64,000 nucleotides of DNA, taken from NCBI GenBank assembly GCA_017547175.1, contig JAFYQI010000003.1, positions 1-64,000 of the forward strand, in the 5' to 3' direction. The position numbers and the translations under genes were made by a program. The notes below the pieces were generated by a model. It saw only the letters and a list, made by a program, of their open reading frames with translations, searched no databases and was not told where the DNA came from. This DNA is from Alistipes sp. Its GTDB lineage: Bacteria > Bacteroidota > Bacteroidia > Bacteroidales > Rikenellaceae. Positions 8,812-9,702 of this stretch are shown here, one piece after another (position 1 is the first letter of the stretch; each line of letters begins with the position of its first letter).

Positions 8812-8867
8812 ATTACGGATTACACCGATTACAGGCTACACACCCCTGTAATCGTGTAATCTGTAAT
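8812..8867. repeat. ATTACA-type palindrome, copy A (inverted relative to B and C)
   Basis: Left arm 8812-8835 and right arm 8845-8867 form a long imperfect hairpin. Each arm is built from three TTACA-like words. The reverse complement of the whole unit closely matches copy B at 9336-9391. No T-run follows on either strand. Confidence 0.85.
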
Positions 8868-8925
8868 ATTGGGATCATAGGCCGCAGCAGCAAGGCGATA
8901 CCTATTCAATTATTTAACACCCGTA

Positions 8926-9250
8926 GGCGTCATCCACACCGCCAAAGGGTACTCGACCCGCTCTTCGCTACCCGGCGCTTACCCACTCCGTTTTGGTCGT
9001 ACGCAAGCGCCCTGGCGAGCGTTCGGCAACTACCGCTGTCGCTCATTATAGCCCCGTAGTGTCCAACAAGGGGTACAGACCCCCGGTAGCAAATTCTATA
9101 TATAAGTGTGTCTAACACATTATATAAAGGTATCTGCTACAAGCTTGCGGGGTCGTTAGCGCGTGGTGAAGCTGCACAGGCGGACGAATAGCTCCCGCGT
9201 GGGGTACGGCTGGCGGGTATGCTACGCACGAAAGTTGCTTCACATGTCCC
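8926..9250 (-). ncRNA. Candidate structured non-coding RNA of unrecognised family
   Basis: About 325 nt, almost wholly accounted for by seven adjacent stem domains. In plus coordinates they are 8926-8943 (GGCG/CGCC), 8947-8973 (GGGTA/TACCC), 8974-9011 (GGCGCTT/AAGCGCC), 9017-9044 (GAGCG/CGCTC with inner CGG/CCG), 9052-9073 (CCCC/GGGG), 9078-9154 (GACCCC/GGGGTC, then GTAGCA/TGCTAC, then TATATAA-TGTGT/ACACA-TTATATA), and 9166-9243 (GTGAAGC/GCTTCAC, then TAGC/GCTA, then CCCGC/GCGGG). A textbook promoter on the minus strand points into it. I looked for hallmarks of RNase P RNA, tmRNA, SRP RNA and a cobalamin riboswitch and found none. No convincing ORF is present. The 3' end is uncertain. Confidence 0.6.
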
Positions 9251-9254
9251 GCTA

Positions 9255-9285
9255 CAAAGATACAAAATTTAACCCCCGTTGTCAA
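9255..9285 (-). promoter_or_regulatory. Promoter of the candidate structured RNA
   Basis: On the minus strand TTGAC starts at 9285, exactly 20 bases separate the TTG from TATCTTTG (9262-9255), and the first stem of the folded region begins 12 bases downstream. This is among the best matches to the Bacteroidetes consensus in the window, and no protein gene lies behind it for ~580 bases. Confidence 0.75.
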
Positions 9286-9335
9286 GTATTTAGGGGTAAA
9301 TTTTTTAACTTTTCGCCTACTGCCTCACCCCGAAA

Positions 9336-9391
9336 ATTACAGATTACACGATTACAGGGGTGTGTAGCCTGTAATGCGTGTAATGCTGTAA
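9336..9391. repeat. ATTACA-type palindrome, copy B
   Basis: The arms ATTACAGATTACACGATTA+CAGG (9336-9358) and 9368-9391 fold into a ~23-bp imperfect stem with a GGTGTGTAG loop. Together with the inverted copy A it brackets the folded RNA region. Confidence 0.85.
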
Positions 9392-9702
9392 CAAACCCTT
9401 TCGGGGAGTACGCAGATCGAGGCCAGGAGGGTGAGCGAAATGTAAAACCGTGTATATCAATAGGTTTTGCAGACGCAACAACCGCAGCAGCCACCTCTAC
9501 CGACACGACCTACACGCAAAAATTACAGATTACACGATTACAGGGGCGTGTAGCCTGTAATGGGTGTAAGGTGAAAGGTGAAAGTTATTCGGTGGTTCTT
9601 GCAGCCACGCAACCAAATGGTGGGTGACGGCCTGGCCGGTGCTATGGCCCTTTTGTTACGCGATCTTTCAACGCGCAACCCTCAACTTTCAACTTTTTTT
9701 TC
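9392..9702. other. Gene-free stretch before the glutaminyl cyclase gene
   Basis: Apart from palindrome copy C I see no gene, RNA or promoter until the -7 box at 9703. A 154-codon open frame across 9163-9627 is made of the palindromes and is not credible as a gene. Confidence 0.6.
9522..9569. repeat. ATTACA-type palindrome, copy C (shortened)
   Basis: The left arm (9522-9544) is identical to copy B, and the loop differs by one base. The right arm stops after CCTGTAATGGGTGTAA (9554-9569), so the third word is missing. It is in direct orientation to copy B. Confidence 0.85.

Follow-up and report, generated by a model that had tools for sequence, protein, structure and literature searches.

A densely folded intergenic stretch in an Alistipes genome is most likely the leader of an iteron-bounded ATPase unit that here lacks its gene

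The window, a stretch of 64,000 nucleotides from an Alistipes sp. contig, contains a non-coding region at the junction between tig and a glutaminyl cyclase gene. A promoter, TTGACAACGGGGGTTAAATTTTGTATCTTTG, is located on the minus strand at 9255-9285 and fits the Bacteroidetes pattern, in which TAnnTTTG stands at -7, preceded by a TTTG-type motif around -33 (PMC7366714). The original prediction had placed a TTG-N20-TATCTTTG promoter at 9285-9255 on this strand, and it was confirmed as the top promoter-like match of the region. Downstream of it lies a predicted leader transcript with dense hairpins (8926-9254, minus strand), in which folding places the strongest hairpin at 9140-9086 (GTAGCAGATACC...GCTAC). 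As had been proposed, no protein gene follows the promoter: neither an ATPase nor any Pfam-recognisable protein was found between it and the start of tig. The stretch itself encodes no ATPase relic, with tblastn scores no better than chance, and no Pfam family.

This region is enclosed by a 55-bp inverted repeat that had not been noted previously, the arms of which, at 8819-8873 and 9330-9384, are 93% complementary. Each arm is a palindrome of 8-bp iterons. The downstream array (8819-8873) consists of three copies of ATTACANN together with GGGGTGTGTAGCC and TGTAATNN, and is inverted relative to upstream array 1 (9330-9388). A second upstream array (9519-9572) is 96% identical to the first, and a further copy of the inverted-repeat arm lies within it at 9519-9569. 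The 3' end of the unit, AGTTAAATNANTGAATAG... (8837-8918, minus strand), runs into the downstream array.

The folding of the stretch is real yet modest (z about -2.5), and only its energy exceeds chance. For the 330 nt of minus strand downstream of the promoter, z was -2.9 when pairing was limited to a 100-nt span, an energy reached by 1 of 400 shuffles, and -2.4 with no span limit (4 of 400); equally low energies were also rare in further shuffle sets (2 of 150 and 1 of 100). The plus strand gave a z of -1.6, and two coding controls and one intergenic control gave values of about 0. The seven hairpin domains with little unpaired sequence that had been described do appear on the minus strand at an 80-nt pairing span, where they cover 309 of 337 nt. 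Dinucleotide-shuffled sequence at the same span, however, yields 7.0 ± 1.2 domains covering 311 ± 11 of 337 nt, so that the domain count and the dense coverage correspond to chance expectation. Rfam searches of the window locus returned no match at the gathering threshold, and relaxing the filters did not change this. The original prediction had noted no RNase P, tmRNA, SRP or cobalamin-riboswitch hallmark; the tmRNA was located elsewhere in the genome. Across 15 related unit loci, only tRNAs scored above the Rfam threshold; apart from these, the Rfam searches gave chance matches of the eukaryotic microRNA type. The RNA body, promoter excluded, has no homolog in 180 genomes of the genus, and the stretch has no DNA match in plasmid or phage collections.

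Searching this genome for the promoter returned three matches, in the window (contig C2) and on contigs C5 and C7, and none in the reversed control. On C7, a 270-nt leader separates the promoter from the gene for a 376-aa protein belonging to Pfam AAA_25 (PF13481, E 8.6e-12). This RepA-like ATPase gene is the only one that the promoter and arrays enclose there, with two arrays again lying upstream, and the C7 unit is the sole intact copy of the genome. The two other promoter copies, in the window and on C5, have no ATPase, and tblastn for an ATPase relic at C5 was also no better than chance. Close matches to the array palindrome of the window occur at the window locus (three) and on C7 (three) and nowhere else in this genome, while C5 carries a diverged array pair that was recognised by direct reading. 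When the window leader was aligned with the leaders of C5, C7 and a unit of genome G026, the promoter, the arrays and the 3' end aligned, and nothing else. The leader has no sequence similarity to that of the C7 ATPase, and its resemblance to the C5 unit is confined to the final 82 nt (74% identity); descent by gene loss therefore rests on the promoter, the arrays and what is seen in other genomes.

In the 180 genus genomes examined for promoter matches, the promoter recurs 5' of ATPase genes. It is not exclusive to ATPase and gene-less units, as it precedes other gene families too. One of these, seen at L181, L189, L201 and other loci, comprises proteins of about 320 aa that start with MKF..IP.NGASW; the genes have leaders of about 245 nt, parts of which are conserved between members. 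In another (L183, L218, L228), the proteins begin with M..LIEQLRxDTQxL.

Homologs of the ATPase (E below 1e-15) were found in 59 of 151 genus genomes, and the loci returned with organism names belong to Alistipes and Rikenellaceae metagenome assemblies. Among the ATPase loci listed, the same kind of promoter is located upstream and mirrored iteron arrays are present on both sides, with a locus-specific array sequence (GTAACA, GTCACA, GAACA and others). The AlphaFold model, based on 22 sequences, has a pLDDT of 85 and a disordered N-terminus of 39 residues, and is read as a RecA fold with a predicted C-terminal winged helix. Foldseek retrieved RadA, RSF1010 RepA and many RecA-fold proteins, RSF1010 RepA being the best target-normalised PDB match (TM 0.68-0.69), and the matching PHROGs profiles were primase/helicase and DnaB-like helicase. 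Plasmid and phage collections contained remote relatives only (<60% identity, <80% coverage). A PADLOC match to mads_8 (E 6e-4) was rejected as a generic ATPase match.

In all ten units tested, including that of the window, the upstream and downstream flanks are mutually inverted, with local scores of 26-131 versus shuffled maxima of 11-13.5. Judged by motif counts, array types are tied to particular genomes: GTAACA arrays gave 39 matches in G026, 30 in G124, 3 in G023, 1 in G033 and none in G000 or G008, and ATTACA arrays were found in G000 only. One gene-less unit of G011 has different arrays at its two ends (L251, 1310-1420 and 1880-1990), one made of GAACA-type and the other of GTAAC-type iterons. 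Arrays can thus be exchanged, and they do not always form a single package with the unit. A solitary iteron palindrome was also observed where an ABC-transporter gene ends, directly behind its stop codon (L163, about 1303-1375; L157, about 1500-1585), at the same position in G023 and G026, where it possibly serves as a terminator. At L047, L188 and L192, intergenic regions are rich in short tandem motifs, such as GGGAGTTTAGGGAATTTAGGG, that recur inverted nearby.

Similar ATPase-type units are present in many relatives, and six or more other genomes contain gene-less ones. The promoter matches placed them in G124, G063, G011, G105, G187, G074 and G181, and probably in G183. Two copies in G124 are 96% identical, two in G063 are 91% identical, and G105 and G187 hold five between them; gene-less derivatives are multi-copy in G187 and G124. 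Three families of gene-less leaders, those of G105/G187, G074 and G181, are homologous to ATPase mRNA leaders. The G105 ATPase leader shares 65-67% identity over about 160-195 nt with the gene-less copies of G105 and G187, and the corresponding identities are 74% in G074 and 73% in G181. Read by eye, the G181 copy contains MLEYELIEEPLRPYVVDMTKPLISIDT, which matches the N-terminus of the ATPase and runs into a stop; a scrap of the ATPase start also survives in the copies of G105 and G187. These copies are leader-plus-relic derivatives of ATPase units, and in three genomes the gene-less leader is demonstrably that of the ATPase mRNA.

The tig-cyclase junction, which holds a gene-less unit here, is occupied by an ATPase unit in G026 and probably also in G124, where the unit adjoins the cyclase gene and tig lies on another contig. 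The orientation of this ATPase unit, seen in G026 and deduced across contigs in G124, is opposite to that of the window unit. In G023 the junction is empty, measuring about 216 bp, and the whole window stretch is absent. At the TPR-sufB junction, a gene-less unit is present in this genome, and the site is empty in G026 and G033. Such occupied and empty sites, together with genome-specific arrays, are what units that spread would be expected to produce. Neither a transposase nor an excision or insertion event was observed. No target duplication was recognised either, the flanks of occupied and empty sites having been read but being too diverged to align. Many of the sequences are metagenome assemblies, which break at such repeats, and several contigs end within repeats.

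Positions 8819 to about 9572 are thus probably occupied by a gene-less, non-autonomous, MITE-like copy of an iteron-bounded ATPase unit that has kept its promoter and structured leader, and the folded stretch is most likely the leader transcript of this copy rather than a free-standing RNA gene. The observations behind this reading are promoter sharing, the inverted arrays, the absence of the gene, homology of gene-less and ATPase leaders in other genomes, and the empty sites. A complete unit would begin with inverted arrays whose iterons measure 8-10 bp and a strong Bacteroidetes promoter; a structured leader, about 80-400 nt long, would lead into a single gene for a RecA-fold, RepA/DnaB-like ATPase, and a mirrored array would close the unit. 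The window copy keeps the arrays, promoter and leader and would have lost the ATPase gene. We infer that the ATPase, with its RecA core and predicted C-terminal winged helix, works on the iteron arrays in trans, in which case gene-less copies could spread with its help, much as MITEs depend on their parent transposon. The window leader is probably transcribed and moderately structured, and such a hairpin-rich leader may be kept as a cis-acting part or transcript stabiliser. A bolder proposal, which we regard as rather unlikely, is that these are a new type of transposase-free mobile or self-maintaining bacterial unit, in which the RepA-like ATPase would work in trans on its own iterons and the structured RNA of the gene-less copies would participate.

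MITEs are non-autonomous derivatives of insertion sequences, such as the IS982-derived MITE of Cardinium (PMC9769881). The window unit resembles them in having no coding capacity, in carrying inverted repeats at both ends and in sharing these ends with the putatively autonomous C7 unit. Units of this type are likewise short and gene-less, bounded by inverted repeats that also flank a gene-bearing parent elsewhere in the genome, and present in several near-identical copies in some genomes. In contrast to MITEs, the gene of the parent is AAA_25/RepA-like, with no transposase seen in the unit, the ends are 8-bp iteron arrays, and the promoter and structured leader are kept. REP palindromes carry a GTAG or CGTC tag (PMC3733652), located at the foot of a 20-40-bp stem and linked to a RAYT. 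The iteron arrays are similarly intergenic, and some are solitary and lie right after genes; by inspection, however, they are longer, at 50-90 bp, consist of repeated 8-mers, occur in few copies per genome and are linked to an ATPase gene. The unit also recalls plasmid iteron/helicase modules (RSF1010 RepA fold), in which a RecA-fold ATPase of the hexameric-helicase type lies beside iterons. Unlike these modules, it is chromosomal and has a single gene, mirror-image arrays at both ends and no visible initiator or primase.

A possible though more doubtful explanation is that the window unit is an inert, decaying remnant of an ATPase-type unit, whose promoter may fire but whose transcript is idle, the hairpins having arisen through the accumulation of inverted repeats at the DNA level. 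Such decay would fit an RNA body unique in the genus beside a kept promoter and arrays, and a fold that is mildly unusual at most. Most gene-less units of other genomes fold with z of -4 to -9 relative to shuffles, those of G074 and G181 and that of C5 showing no comparable excess. In most of these other units folding is about equally significant on the antisense and sense strands, as DNA-level palindromes would show; RNA-level and DNA-level palindromes are therefore not separated. Nevertheless, the sense strand folds better in G183 and in several ATPase leaders, and the promoter of the window unit is near consensus and well kept. Strand asymmetry was rejected as proof of RNA-level selection because the results are mixed. 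The gene-less RNAs of G063 and G011, which are about 91% identical despite their differing arrays, also speak against an inert remnant, and show a few compensatory changes. At L206, L210 and L251, the first 60 nt of these RNAs are variable and the body is about 91% conserved. The G063 RNA has 2-3 compensated pairs, which is within shuffled expectation; the G063 pair shows two double changes, a number reached by 111 of 500 shuffles, so this covariation is not evidence on its own. Since the window body has no homolog, the strands are not separated and the G063/G011 compensation is within shuffled expectation, we give a functional RNA no better than an even chance.

It is improbable that the stretch is a free-standing structured RNA gene of a new family, acting as a regulator or ribozyme, with the adjacent repeats being incidental. 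The earlier description of a promoter-driven, densely folded, non-coding stretch of no known family is fair, and the lack of coding potential, the strong promoter and the fold z of about -2.5 would suit such a gene. The further step to a self-standing structured RNA gene of ~320 nt is not supported, as the body lacks homologs in the genus, plasmid and phage searches, the syntenic G023 site is empty, and the promoter and arrays belong to ATPase-type units. A diverged housekeeping RNA (6S, RNase P, tmRNA or SRP) missed by Rfam models is highly improbable: the 6S model found nothing in this genome and five relatives, which leaves one housekeeping RNA unaccounted for, but it also misses relatives that include other genera, the tmRNA is accounted for, and the window locus is unconserved even in the closest genomes.

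If the gene-less ATPase-unit copy is the correct reading, an apparent orphan RNA belongs to a recurring class of ATPase units that are bounded by repeats and accompanied by gene-less satellites. This class is apparently undescribed, as no description of such a unit was found in the open-access literature on repeats, MITEs and AAA ATPases. Its host is a common gut genus, with units at scattered sites in gut Alistipes genomes, and this raises the question of how units in which no transposase can be recognised reach differing sites in close relatives. Densely folded intergenic RNA in such genomes should be viewed with caution, as it can be leader debris of repeat elements. Elsewhere in the window, a tandem direct repeat was observed at positions 1-249, the two copies of which (1-117 and 133-249) are 94% identical.
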